A stretch of 64,000 nucleotides of DNA from an uncultured Caulobacterales bacterium. Its GTDB lineage: Bacteria > Pseudomonadota > Alphaproteobacteria > Caulobacterales > Caulobacteraceae. The position numbers and the translations under genes were made by a program. Positions 12,888 through 17,820 of this stretch are shown piece after piece; the stretch's first letter is position 1, and the number at the start of each line of letters is the position of its first letter. A model generated the notes under the pieces. It was not told the DNA's origin and did not search any database. It was given only the letters and a program-made list of their open reading frames with translations. Location of the stretch: NCBI GenBank assembly GCA_903900155.1, contig CAIUMD010000098.1, positions 1 through 64,000 of the forward strand, given 5' to 3'.

Positions 12888-12897
12888 CTGAAGCGTG

Positions 12898-12932
12898 CGC
12901 CCGGCTCGCGTGTCTGAGCCGGGCGTCTTTTT
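12898..12932 (+). terminator. Intrinsic terminator between acrA and acrB
   Basis: CGCCCGGCTC (12898-12907) pairs perfectly with GAGCCGGGCG (12916-12925) around an 8-base loop and is followed by TCTTTTTC. It lies 10 bases after the acrA stop and 113 bases before acrB, inside what should be one operon. It may partially terminate to lower pump-subunit levels relative to the adaptor. Confidence 0.8.
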
Positions 12933-13045
12933 CGGGTTTCGAGAGGGTCTCTGTCGCCCGCCGTTTGGCGGGGGAGGGGCCGCTTGCACCCGAAGCGTAC
13001 GCGTATCCGCTCCTCCCCAAGTTCGCCCGCTGAAGGCGCTCCGCC

Positions 13046-16000
13046 ATGAATTTCTCGAAGTTCTTCGTGAACCGACCGCGCTTTGCGGCCGTGCTCTCCA
13101 TCATCATCTTCATCGCCGGCCTGGTCTCGTTGCCGAACCTGCCGATCAGCGAATATCCCGAGGTCGTGCCGCCCACCGTGGTGGTGCGCGCGGCCTATCC
13201 CGGCGCCAACCCGAACGTCATCGGCGAGACGGTGGCCGCCCCCCTGGAACAGGCCATCAACGGCGTCGAGGGGATGATCTACCAGTCGTCCCAGTCGGCC
13301 TCCGACGGGGCGATGATCCTGACCGTCACCTTCGCGCTCGGCACCGACCTGGATAAGGCCCAGGTGCAGGTGCAGAACCGGGTGGCCCAGGCCCTGCCCA
13401 AGTTGCCGCAGGAGGTCCAGCGCATCGGCGTGACGACCAACAAGGCCTCGCCCGACCTGACCTTGGTCGTGCACATGATCTCGCCGAACAACCGCTACGA
13501 CATGCTGTATCTCAGCAACTACGCGCAGCTGAACGTTCGCGACCGCCTCAAGCGGATCGACGGCGTGGGCGACGTGCAGATCTTCGGCGCGGGCGCCTAT
13601 TCGATGCGCGTGTGGCTGGATCCCGAAAAGCTGGCCGCCCTGCAGATGACCGCCGGCGATGTCGTGCGGGCCCTGCGCGAGCAGAACGTCCAGGTCGCCG
13701 CCGGCCAGCTGGGCGCGCCACCCAACGCCGGTTCGGGCGCCGAATTCCAGCTGTCGGTCAACGCCCCCGGGCGACTGACGGACGAAGAGCAGTTCCGCCA
13801 GGTCATCGTCCGCTCGGGCGAGGACGGCCAGATCACCCGCCTGGGCGACGTGGCCCGCGTGGAGCTGGGCGCCGACAACTACGCCCTGCGCTCGCTCCTG
13901 GATAACAAGTCCGCCGTCGCCATGCCGGTGTTCCAGCGCCCGGGCTCCAACGCCCTGGAGATGGCCGCCGAGGTCAAGAAGACCATGAAGGAACTCAAGA
14001 AGGAGTTCCCCGAGGGCGTCGACTACGAGATCATCTACGACACCACGGCCTTCGTGCAGGAAAGCATCGACTCGGTGGTCCACACCCTGATCGAAGCCAT
14101 CATCCTGGTCGTGCTGGTGGTGGTGCTGTTCCTGCAGGGCTGGCGCGCCTCGATCATTCCGCTGATCGCCGTGCCCGTCTCGCTGGTGGGCACGTTCGCG
14201 CTGCTGCTGATGCTGGGCTTTGGCCTCAACGCCCTGACGCTGTTTGGCCTGGTGCTGGCCATCGGCATCGTCGTCGACGACGCCATCGTCGTGGTCGAGA
14301 ACGTCGAGCGCAACATCACCGATGGCCTCGAGCCCGCCGCGGCGACGCGCAAGGCCATGACCGAGGTGACCGGACCGATCATCTCCACGGCCCTGGTGCT
14401 GTGCGCGGTGTTCATCCCCACCGCCTTCATCAGCGGCCTGTCGGGCCAGTTCTACCGTCAGTTCGCCCTGACCATCGCCATCTCGACGGTGATCTCGGCC
14501 ATCAACTCTCTGACCCTGTCGCCGGCCCTGGCCGCGGTGCTCCTGAAGTCGCATGACGCGCCCAAGGACCGCTTCCAGAAGCTGATCGACGCCTCGCTGA
14601 GCTGGCTGTTCAACCCGTTCAACCGCTTCTTCGCCAAGGCCTCGAACGGCTATGTCGTCGGCGTCGCCAAGACCCTGGGCCGCTCCTCGGCCGCCCTGGC
14701 CCTGTACGGCGGTCTCTTGATCCTGACGGTGTTCGCCTTCTCGCGCACGCCAGGCGGCTTCGTGCCCCAGCAGGACAAGGCCTATGTCGTGGCCGTGGTC
14801 CAGCTGCCCGACGCGGCCTCGCTGGATCGCACCGAGGCGGTCATCCGCCAGATGGGCGACATCGCCATGAAGACGCCGGGCATCAAGCACTCGGTGGCCT
14901 TCCCCGGCCTGTCGGCCAACGGCTTCATCAACAGCCCCAACTCCGGCGCGGTGTTCTTCCCGCTGGACGACTTCAAGAACCGCAAGGGCCACGCGCTGTC
15001 GGCGCCCGCCATCGTGGGTGAGCTGAACCAGAAGTTCGCCGCCATTCCCGACGCCCAGATCGCGGTCTTCCCGCCGCCGTCCGTGCAGGGTCTGGGCACC
15101 ATCGGCGGCTTCCGGATGCAGATCGTCGACAAGGCGGGCATGGGTTCGCAGGAGCTGTACAACGCCACCCAGAACATCATCGCCAAGGCCCAGAAGGACC
15201 CGGCGCTGGCGGGGGTGTTCTCCAGCTACCAAGTGAGCGTGCCGAAGATCCAGGCCGACATCGACCGCGAAAAGGCCCGGGCCCAGGGCGTGTCCCTGAC
15301 CGACCTGTTCGAGACGATGCAGGTCTATCTGGGCTCGCTGTACGTCAACGACTTCAACCGCTTCGGCCACACCTACCAGGTCAACGTCCAGGCCGATCAG
15401 AACTTCCGCCTGCAACCCGAGCAGATGCTGCGCCTGCAGACCCGCAACGGCCAGGGCCAGATGATCCCGCTGGGCGCCTTCGTCTCCTTCAAGGAAGCGA
15501 CCGGCCCCGACCGCGAGAGCCACTACAACGGCTACCTGACCGCCGAGATCAACGGCGGCCCGGCGCCGGGCTACTCCACCGGCCAGGCCCAGAAGGCGCT
15601 TGAGGACATCATCAAGTCCGAGCTGCCCAATGGCATGGGCTCGGAGTGGACCGAGCTGACCTACCAGCAGATCCTGGCGGGCAACACGGCGATCTTCATC
15701 TTCCCGCTGTGCGTGCTGCTGGCCTTCCTGGTGCTGGTCGCCCAGTACGAAAGCTGGAGCTTGCCGCTGGTGGTGATCCTGATCGTTCCGATGACCCTGT
15801 TGTCGGCCCTGGCCGGCGTGTGGATCAGCAAGGGCGACAACAACATCTTCACCCAGATCGGCCTGATCGTGCTGGTGGGGCTGGCGTGTAAGAACGCCAT
15901 CCTGATCGTGGAGTTCGCCAAGGAACGCGAGGAGCACGGCGACAGCGCGCTCCAGGCGGTTCTCGAAGCCTGCCGCCTGCGCCTGCGTCCGATCCTGATG

Positions 16001-16222
16001 ACCTCGATCGCCTTCATCATGGGGGTCTATCCCCTGGTGGTGTCGCAGGGGGCCGGGGCCGAGATGCGCAAGGCCATGGGCGTTGCGGTGTTCTCGGGGA
16101 TGCTGGGCGTGACCCTGTTCGGCCTGATCCTGACGCCTGTCTTCTACTACGTCATCCGCCGCAACACGGCCCGCAAGGCTGCGAAGACGGCGGCGCTGAC
16201 CTCGCCCGTGGAGGCGCACTGA
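13046..16222 (+). CDS. acrB: RND multidrug efflux pump, inner-membrane transporter (AcrB/MexB family)
   Basis: A 1058-residue proton-driven exporter. It has the HAE1 topology: one N-terminal membrane helix (VLSIIIFIAGLVSL), a large periplasmic porter loop (PGANPNVIGETVAAPLEQAI), helices 2-6 with the proton-relay aspartates D411 and D412 in GIVVDDAIVVVENVERN, a second porter loop and helices 8-12 ending GVTLFGLILTPVFYYVI. Length is normal. It pairs with acrA upstream and overlaps nodT by one base (TGATG). Substrates cannot be read from sequence; the C. crescentus counterpart exports quinolones, beta-lactams and flavonoids, if the orthology holds. Confidence 0.96.
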   Translation: MNFSKFFVNRPRFAAVLSIIIFIAGLVSLPNLPISEYPEVVPPTVVVRAAYPGANPNVIGETVAAPLEQAINGVEGMIYQSSQSASDGAMILTVTFALGTDLDKAQVQVQNRVAQALPKLPQEVQRIGVTTNKASPDLTLVVHMISPNNRYDMLYLSNYAQLNVRDRLKRIDGVGDVQIFGAGAYSMRVWLDPEKLAALQMTAGDVVRALREQNVQVAAGQLGAPPNAGSGAEFQLSVNAPGRLTDEEQFRQVIVRSGEDGQITRLGDVARVELGADNYALRSLLDNKSAVAMPVFQRPGSNALEMAAEVKKTMKELKKEFPEGVDYEIIYDTTAFVQESIDSVVHTLIEAIILVVLVVVLFLQGWRASIIPLIAVPVSLVGTFALLLMLGFGLNALTLFGLVLAIGIVVDDAIVVVENVERNITDGLEPAAATRKAMTEVTGPIISTALVLCAVFIPTAFISGLSGQFYRQFALTIAISTVISAINSLTLSPALAAVLLKSHDAPKDRFQKLIDASLSWLFNPFNRFFAKASNGYVVGVAKTLGRSSAALALYGGLLILTVFAFSRTPGGFVPQQDKAYVVAVVQLPDAASLDRTEAVIRQMGDIAMKTPGIKHSVAFPGLSANGFINSPNSGAVFFPLDDFKNRKGHALSAPAIVGELNQKFAAIPDAQIAVFPPPSVQGLGTIGGFRMQIVDKAGMGSQELYNATQNIIAKAQKDPALAGVFSSYQVSVPKIQADIDREKARAQGVSLTDLFETMQVYLGSLYVNDFNRFGHTYQVNVQADQNFRLQPEQMLRLQTRNGQGQMIPLGAFVSFKEATGPDRESHYNGYLTAEINGGPAPGYSTGQAQKALEDIIKSELPNGMGSEWTELTYQQILAGNTAIFIFPLCVLLAFLVLVAQYESWSLPLVVILIVPMTLLSALAGVWISKGDNNIFTQIGLIVLVGLACKNAILIVEFAKEREEHGDSALQAVLEACRLRLRPILMTSIAFIMGVYPLVVSQGAGAEMRKAMGVAVFSGMLGVTLFGLILTPVFYYVIRRNTARKAAKTAALTSPVEAH

Positions 16223-17742
16223 TGTTCCGTAAAAACCTGTCATCCCGGCCAAGCGCGTCAGCGCGCCGAGCCGGGACCCCCGCAAGCGCCGACGTCTTCG
16301 GCGGTCCCGGCTCTACGCTTCGCTCCGGCCGGGATGACAATTGGGGTAAGGCGCTCCGTGGTCTCTTGATCGCCGGCGTCTCCCTGACGGCGACCGCCTG
16401 CGCGGTGGGCCCGAACTACAAGGCGCCGGCGACCCCGCCGGCGGCCTTCCAGAACGCCGACCCGGCCGTGTTCACCGCCGCCACCCCGGAAGCCGACTGG
16501 TGGAAGGCCTTCGGCGACCCGGTGCTGGACCAACTGGTCGGCCAGGCCCTGGGCGGCAATCTCGACCTGAAGATCGCCGTCGCCCGCGTCGGCGAGGCCC
16601 GCGCCCTGTTCACCGAACAGAAGCTGGACCTCTTGCCGCACGTCACGGCCAACGGAACCTATACCAAGAGCGACCAGCAGCAGCCTGGTTTCACGACCGG
16701 CCGGGTCGAGAACCAGAGCTACCGGGCCGGCTTCGACGCCGGCTGGGAGATCGACCTGTTCGGCCGCGTCCGTCGCGGCGTCGAGGCGGCGGGGGCGGAA
16801 GCCGGCGCGGCCCAGGCGCAGCTGCGCGACGCCCAGGTCACGGTCGCGGCGGAAGTTGCTCGGAACTACCTCGAGCTGCGCGGCGCCCAGGCCCGCCTGA
16901 AGGTCGCCAACCGCAACCTCGAGACCCAGCGCGAGACCGTGCGCCTGACCAAGGTGCGGTTCGACGCCGGGGCGGGCAGCCCGATCGACGTGGCCTCGGC
17001 CCAGGCGCGCCTCAACGCCACCGAGGCGGCGATCCCGGGCCTGATCACGGCCGAGAAGCGCGCCAACCATCGCCTGGCGGTGCTGACCGGCCAGCGCCCC
17101 GGCGCGCTGGACGCGCTTCTTGTTTCGCGTGATGAGGACGTCCGACCGCTGGTCGCGGCCCTGCCGATCGGCCAGGCCGGCGACCTGCTGCGCCGCCGTC
17201 CGGACGTGCAGGCGGCGGAACGTCGCCTGGCGGCCTCGACGGCTCGGGTGGGGGTGGCCACGGCCGACCTCTTCCCGCGCGTGTCGGTGACCGGCTTCGT
17301 CGGTTTCCTGTCGGGGACCTCGGCGGGCTTTGGCAACAGCGCCAGCCAGGCCTGGTCGGTGGCCCCCAGCGTCAGCTGGCCGGCCCTGGACCTGGGCAGC
17401 GCCCATGCTCGCCTGCGGGCGGCCAAGGCGCGCGACGAGGCGGCCCTGGCCAACTACGACCAGACGGTGCTGCGGGCGCTGGAGGACCTGGAGAACGCCC
17501 TGGTCTCCTACAGCCAGCAGCAGGCCCAGCTGAAGAGCCTGACCGACCAGGCGGCGGCCTCGCGCCGCGCGGCCGAGCTGGCCCGCGTGCAGTACAAGGA
17601 AGGCGGCATCGACTTCCTGGTCCTGCTCGACGCCGAGCGCACCCTGCTGGCGGCCGAGGACGCCCTCACGGTCGCCGAGACCGGCGTCAACACCGACGTG
17701 GTGGCCATCTACAAGGCCTTGGGCGGCGGCTGGAAAGCCTAG
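16222..17742 (+). CDS. nodT: NodT-family outer-membrane efflux lipoprotein with an unusual long N-terminus
   Basis: The outer-membrane channel of the tripartite pump, 506 residues, OprM/NodT family: lipoprotein region LTATACAVGPNYKAP, two outer-membrane-factor repeats (start marked by LDLKIAVARVGEARALF and NLETQRETVRLTKVRF), and the GAGSPIDVASAQARL turn. The ATG at 16222 overlaps the acrB stop and has GGAGG seven bases upstream, so this start is convincing. The first 46 residues before the hydrophobic signal core are unusually long because a 102-base palindromic repeat lies in frame after codon 5. The signal core GLLIAGVSLTATAC still looks functional. A terminator follows the gene. Confidence 0.93.
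   Translation: MFRKNLSSRPSASARRAGTPASADVFGGPGSTLRSGRDDNWGKALRGLLIAGVSLTATACAVGPNYKAPATPPAAFQNADPAVFTAATPEADWWKAFGDPVLDQLVGQALGGNLDLKIAVARVGEARALFTEQKLDLLPHVTANGTYTKSDQQQPGFTTGRVENQSYRAGFDAGWEIDLFGRVRRGVEAAGAEAGAAQAQLRDAQVTVAAEVARNYLELRGAQARLKVANRNLETQRETVRLTKVRFDAGAGSPIDVASAQARLNATEAAIPGLITAEKRANHRLAVLTGQRPGALDALLVSRDEDVRPLVAALPIGQAGDLLRRRPDVQAAERRLAASTARVGVATADLFPRVSVTGFVGFLSGTSAGFGNSASQAWSVAPSVSWPALDLGSAHARLRAAKARDEAALANYDQTVLRALEDLENALVSYSQQQAQLKSLTDQAAASRRAAELARVQYKEGGIDFLVLLDAERTLLAAEDALTVAETGVNTDVVAIYKALGGGWKA
16238..16339 (+). repeat. 102-bp palindromic repeat inserted in frame within nodT
   Basis: Outer arms TGTCATCCCGGCC (16238-16250) and GGCCGGGATGACA (16327-16339) are perfect inverted copies, and inner arms GAGCCGGGACC (16268-16278) and GGTCCCGGCTC (16303-16313) are too. 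The element is 102 bases, exactly 34 codons, and keeps the nodT frame open. It resembles the intergenic palindromes common in alphaproteobacteria but here lies inside a coding region. Confidence 0.85.
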
Positions 17743-17763
17743 GCCCTCTTTCAGGCGTTGATG

Positions 17764-17797
17764 AAACCCGGCCGTTCTCGCGGCCGGGTTTTGTTTT
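17764..17797 (+). terminator. Intrinsic terminator of the acrAB-nodT operon
   Basis: AAACCCGGCCG (17764-17774) and CGGCCGGGTTT (17781-17791) form a perfect 11-bp stem with a 6-base loop, followed by TGTTTTT. It ends 24 bases before the stop of the convergent LytTR gene. Confidence 0.9.
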
Positions 17798-17820
17798 TCG
17801 CCGCCGGACGCGCGAGCCGC

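Follow-up and report, generated by a model that had tools for sequence, protein, structure and literature searches.

On its forward strand, the window (the whole 64,000-nucleotide stretch analysed) carries a gene for an RND pump (acrB, 13046-16222; Pfam ACR_tran) followed by the gene for a NodT-type outer-membrane efflux protein (nodT, 16222-17742; Pfam OEP). The names acrB, nodT, mfp and DnaE2, and the term lipoprotein, are assumptions, either our own or those of an earlier reading of the DNA (the sequence-only reading); Pfam matches across the loci compared in this work were to OEP, ACR_tran, HlyD-type, DNA polymerase III alpha, M20 and GH10 domains. The acrB stop codon and the nodT start codon share one base (TGATG), and a GGAGG Shine-Dalgarno-like site for the overlapping ATG lies at 16210-16214 on the same strand; the support that the sequence-only reading saw for this start, namely GGAGG and an overlap with the acrB stop, thus stands, the overlap being 1 nt. 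The nodT ORF is intact over 506 codons, as is its OEP domain. Terminator-like hairpins with T-runs were seen by eye at 12888-13045 (behind mfp, inside the operon) and at 17743-17800 (behind nodT).

Within nodT, 15 nt behind the acrB stop, a 102-base nested palindrome equal to 34 codons occupies 16238-16339 on the forward strand. Its outer arms, TGTCATCCCGGCC (16238-16250) and GGCCGGGATGACA (16327-16339), are perfectly complementary (13/13), and its inner arms (16263-16282 and 16299-16318) are 85% complementary. The predicted RNA fold has an energy of -69.2 kcal/mol against a mean of -43.2 for shuffled sequences (z = -7.5), and none of 200 shuffles was as good, which bears out the earlier description of a nested palindrome lying in frame in nodT. 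Read inwards from either end, the halves both follow TGTCATCCCGGCC...GAGCCGGGACC, which makes the element a head-to-head dimer of such units; we refer to it as family A. Both outer ends bear a TGTC tag, and a search of the window for the motif GTCATCCCGGCC with zero mismatches located it at either end of the repeat and nowhere else. Inside one unit, ATCCCGGC stands opposite GCCGGGAC, giving seven pairs with the first A opposite C, and the unit loops measure 20 and 16 nt (both read by eye). Rfam returned four weak matches for 15900-16700, none at its gathering score, and a plasmid collection gave matches to parts of the pump genes but none to the repeat among the 20 of 21 records listed.

The repeat had been placed after codon 5; its first base is the second one of codon 6, while the 46-residue leader ahead of the hydrophobic core, consisting of MFRKN, 34 residues and NWGKALR, is as originally described. 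The sole other in-frame ATG, GTG or TTG ahead of the lipobox is a TTG at 16366-16368 (forward strand), between the repeat and the lipobox and 33 nt before the lipobox Cys codon, which would give a leader of 11 residues.

Copies in the source genome and its relatives

Named relatives assign the source genome to Caulobacter. The repeat proved to be multicopy there, as the sequence-only reading had supposed. A first search of the source genome (40 of 144 candidates scored) gave at least 40 repeat places, and 30 places in the genome have both repeat ends intact. When the searches were joined with a covariance-model search (150 of 12,093 candidates scored), the count rose to at least 48 distinct sites, a lower bound because candidates were scored in part; not all of the 48 are complete copies. 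The modal length among 23 aligned copies was 100 nt, as against 102 for the nodT copy, which has one base unique among the 23. The nodT repeat is adjoined on its left side by an A-rich edge, AAAAACC (16231-16237, forward strand). An AA(A/G)C edge is present on the gene-end side of 25 of the 48 copies; having one further C at its edge, the nodT copy falls outside these 25.

Gene calls around the 48 sites came from a codon model for which 27 long ORFs of the window had served as training set. Three sites have no called 3′ end beside them and 13 have no 5′ end, owing to contig edges or gene orientation. Of the remaining copies, 40/45 lie within 15 nt of a gene 3′ end (median 7), and three of these 40 overlap the called gene end by 6-22 nt, two of them having imprecise copy ends; only 7/35 lie within 15 nt of a gene 5′ end. 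By the same gene calls, no copy (0/48) lies within a gene body. The position of the nodT copy, 15 nt behind the acrB stop, is therefore the usual place for copies in this genome, and only the overlap of acrB with nodT puts the repeat within nodT.

Of the codirectional junctions in the source genome, 10/32 have no stop across the copy in the downstream frame, and three of the ten have a start codon close by in that frame; an open frame is therefore little proof by itself. Two copies are open from a start that overlaps the upstream stop, whereas for a third (locus L016) the only such start is a GTG inside the gene upstream. At locus L014 (C11:48262-48361), a copy behind an ATGA overlap is open in frame from the overlapping ATG into a GH10 gene with a lipobox-like leader; the end of that repeat also yields an in-frame ATG. 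Length is divisible by three in 14/48 copies, some of them partial, and the 34-codon length of the nodT repeat could be chance.

Family A was matched at E 1e-6 or better in 11 of 14 tested relatives. Nine of eleven members of the genus matched, with at least 3 to 149 matches each (both strands counted), while the same search gave zero matches in the basal genomes G047 and G059; the distribution of the family is patchy. Copies within 15 nt of a 3′ end numbered 18/20 in G018, 5/12 in G060 and 2/6 in G020, so that the bias to stops is weaker in the latter two genomes. One of 40 copies from these three genomes, taken down the score list, lies within a gene.

Relationship to known repeats

The element resembles the dimers of CGTC-tagged (often TGTC-tagged) REPs, which are described as common in Alphaproteobacteria, located near gene ends, at times in frame within genes, and lacking a dedicated transposase (Di Nocera et al. 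2013, PMC3733652). The features in common are a TGTC/CGTC tag on the outside, an ATCCCGG stem start, the head-to-head dimer, a position mostly <20 bp behind gene 3′ ends and occasional in-frame location in ORFs. As to a transposase, the search in the source genome covered PF01797 (RAYT). The nodT repeat differs in that its loops are longer than the 4-5 nt of most CGTC families, although other loop lengths are allowed in some, and in that its units have seven pairs with a mismatched first A where the CGTC stem has 8-9 bp and starts with AT paired to AT (PMC3733652). Because of the longer loops, the element is filed among CGTC-type REPs by resemblance and not in a strict sense. Caulobacter is absent from the main text of that survey.

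Three other kinds of repeat were compared. The CcrM-associated intergenic repeats (CIR) of Caulobacter, described as ~100 nt long and carrying GANTC (PMC2229807, PMC10969869), are likewise ~100-nt intergenic Caulobacter repeats; identity with CIR was rejected, since GANTC occurs in 1/48 copies in the source genome. A RAYT-mobilised REPIN was rejected for the source genome, which gave zero PF01797 matches, the control having matched in 5/14 genomes including C. vibrioides. As with stop-proximal REPs of E. coli, a hairpin would lie within 15 nt behind the stop; the sequence differs, and this likeness is one of position. A literature text search with GTCATCCCGG returned only papers on other subjects, as judged by title and abstract opening, and neither this Caulobacter family nor its nodT and LigD cases came up in the literature searched, mostly the main text of freely accessible papers.

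Copies inside genes of relatives

Several relatives carry the repeat inside genes. In G060, G020 and G016, family A lies in frame in the LigD linker that joins the phosphoesterase domain to the ligase domain, and a different palindrome occupies the same linker in G032 and G010; in all, in-frame palindromes of two families were found in 5 of 28 LigD linkers read (loci L295, L296 and L325-L329), these 28 being drawn from 30 loci, out of 51 genomes with a match. In G016 the repeat is also in frame in a DnaE-type polymerase (L360), which we take to be DnaE2, between the finger domain and the helix-hairpin-helix. In G020 and G060 (L357, L361) it makes up the C-terminal tail of an M20-family enzyme, almost to the final residue, and the stop codon of this enzyme's gene overlaps a called aminotransferase gene start. 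Since the polymerase and M20 copies came from a search favouring long open frames, they give no rate; of 20 further copies picked from long open frames, one is in a gene and two are in a gene C-terminal end, the rest being intergenic (own gene calls).

Such cases recall the palindromic elements of Rickettsia (RPE), which are likewise palindromes of ~100-150 nt in frame in protein genes (PMC2229807, PMC10969869, PMC3733652), and of which RPE-4 and RPE-6 belong to the CGTC type (PMC3733652). REPs of GTAG or CGTC kind are reported to lie within DnaE2 genes and one DNA ligase, in text that does not tie the cases to the CGTC kind; the ligase case is that of O. terrae, which the survey mentions as a carrier of intragenic GTAG repeats (PMC3733652). 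The repeat could accordingly be imagined as a gene-invading palindrome similar to RPE-1, inserting in frame at sites that proteins tolerate. Besides the in-frame copies in LigD, the polymerase and the M20 enzyme, a common frame speaks for this: the SSR..RDD frame is used in nodT of the source genome, the three LigD linkers and the two M20 enzymes, with the right half only in the polymerase. We regard this explanation as very unlikely, given that other frames are used in nodT of G060 and in the GH10 leader of the source genome, that copies are associated with gene 3′ ends, and that those in gene bodies amount to none of 48 in the source genome and one of the 40 copies chosen by model score in relatives. 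Many copies inside ORFs, a trait of RPE, are thus not seen in the source genome; in-gene copies are rare, most copies hug gene 3′ ends, and the genus, unlike Rickettsia, is free-living. The sequence-only reading had suggested an alphaproteobacterial analogue of the Rickettsia palindromes; this holds insofar as the CGTC type includes RPE-4 and RPE-6 and relatives have in-gene copies, but not for a general in-frame spread.

History of the acrB-nodT junction

Some match was found in 74 of 75 genomes of the genus. Close orthologues (≥73% identity) are present in 37, including the source genome (G000), and the junction was read in every one of these; whether it is filled or empty, which of three families fills it and to which of two kinds a family C insert belongs were judged by eye. 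The junction is filled by palindromes in 17 genomes and empty in 20. Family A is present at the junction in G000 and G060, family B (GTCATCCCCCGC) in G016 and G020, and family C (CTCCCCC-TCGATGG) in thirteen genomes, one insert being partial. Apart from the source genome, palindromes therefore occupy 16 of 36 junctions, none with the same leader, which agrees with the insertion proposed by the sequence-only reading. Orthologous junctions from other genera of the bacterial family were all empty (17/17, by eye).

In the sister genome G039, NodT is 97% identical downstream of the repeat and the junction is empty, so that the insertion is recent, gained after the split from G039; the junction is also empty in the nearest other relatives. 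On a tree of 54 AcrB-NodT sequences made by a quick method, with 15 of 51 inner branches open, the junction label needs at least 9 changes, family A was gained at least twice and family B forms one clade. Multiple copies of family C are present in G064 and G003, as are multiple copies of family B in G016 and G020; in G019, another genome with a C insert at the junction, the search gave only 7 C matches. The C inserts are of two kinds by central sequence, and about five insertions at the junction are counted on this basis.

The mfp-acrB junction of the same operon served as a control. Gaps of 89-226 nt are present there in 31/35 relatives and hold a palindrome or a terminator-like hairpin (by eye; the motif labels are crude and miss families), and the gap is bare, at 28-30 nt, only in G047, G059, G062 and G014. 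These fillings weaken the notion that acrB-nodT is a special landing place; it is the overlap of the genes, not a landing preference, that sets acrB-nodT apart from mfp-acrB. Behind the mfp stop (L220-L254), several kinds of palindrome form a mosaic across the genus.

Translation through the repeat

The upstream ATG is kept in ten filled junctions, and in nine of the ten the insert is open and in frame to the lipobox; in eight of these nine, this is the only stop-free frame through the insert. GGAG or GGAGG is kept in all nine in-frame junctions, while the out-of-frame junction (L040) has GAGG. The seven filled junctions without the upstream ATG have only AGG at the site; two of them are open in frame when read from the same position and one when read one base later. 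The difference between 9/10 and 2/7 has a Fisher p of 0.035, uncorrected for relatedness, and the ten junctions, representing about five insertions, are not independent. When other copies from the source genome were placed at the nodT site in both orientations, leaving out the resident copy and L027, L210 and L217 (imprecise or cut copies), 15 of 88 placements were in frame and open.

Because the frame is kept open where the upstream start survives, these patterns support translation through the repeat, and ribosomes likely read through it. We consider it quite probable that NodT is translated from the overlapping ATG with an n-region longer by 34 residues, the repeat being a copy of a REP-like family that settles behind stops. 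The opposing reading is that the repeat is untranslated, NodT starting at TTG 16366 (or poorly elsewhere) and the overlap having been turned into an intergenic spacer. The codon model, which found the 34 repeat codons unsupported as coding and placed the nodT start after the repeat, favours it, as do the relatives: an ATG is present behind the insert in all 16 other filled junctions, at least 54 nt before the lipobox, and seven of these junctions lack the upstream ATG, which suggests that the start has shifted to the far side of the insert. Where the upstream ATG is present in those 16 junctions it may accordingly be little used. The survey by Di Nocera et al. leaves open whether N-terminal repeats are translated, with the caution that many N-terminal REPs may be extragenic and translation may start downstream (PMC3733652). 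The source genome has only the TTG behind its insert, the leader of which lacks positive charge and has no close Shine-Dalgarno site that we could see; together with the joint retention of frame, start and Shine-Dalgarno-like site in nine junctions, this makes an untranslated repeat unlikely.

A hairpin of -69 kcal/mol lying 16 nt past the start could hinder initiation, which raises the further alternative that the insertion breaks NodT expression and that nodT is heading for a pseudogene. In the MAG G039, a TAG lies in frame in acrB ~96 codons short of the gene's end (L032, L122), where the window has a Glu codon (15932-15934), so that the operon may be dispensable, or the G039 assembly wrong. 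The intact ORF and OEP domain and the close identity to G039 downstream of the repeat render decay of nodT highly improbable. The junction holds a record of frame-preserving insertion that is unusually clear, left by a known kind of repeat; several independent insertions at one junction make translation of N-terminal repeats testable, with start, Shine-Dalgarno-like site and frame kept jointly in nine genomes and gone in others.

Proposed mechanism

In the scheme that we propose, a Caulobacter repeat resembling head-to-head CGTC/TGTC-type REP dimers would settle just behind stop codons, and the copy behind acrB would fall inside nodT, as the nodT start uses the last base of the stop. Ribosomes would start, or probably re-start in a coupled manner, at the overlapping ATG and read the repeat in frame, lengthening the NodT n-region and leaving the signal core and lipobox nearly unchanged, as the conservation of frame suggests. 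Insertions that break the frame would presumably be removed unless a new start arose behind the repeat. The relatives look as if such a start had formed, the old one then having decayed in one clade. Repeats that hug stop codons may in this way lengthen proteins or separate overlapping genes.

The RNA hairpin behind acrB may act as REPs do elsewhere, either stabilising acrB mRNA or slowing ribosomes at the stop, and could thereby lower NodT relative to AcrB. A broader version of this idea, which strikes us as quite unlikely, is that unrelated REP dimers have landed repeatedly at acrB/nodT and been kept since the hairpin tunes the pump:channel ratio, translation being part of the control; if true, overlapping genes would have a general way of coming apart, in which an in-frame insertion is followed by a new start behind the repeat and the old start then decays. 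E. coli REPs less than 16 nt from a stop are reported to down-regulate translation in some cases (PMC12306157, PMC5082802), only ~11% of E. coli REPs being that near a stop (PMC12306157). The distance between the acrB stop and the nodT repeat is at this limit.
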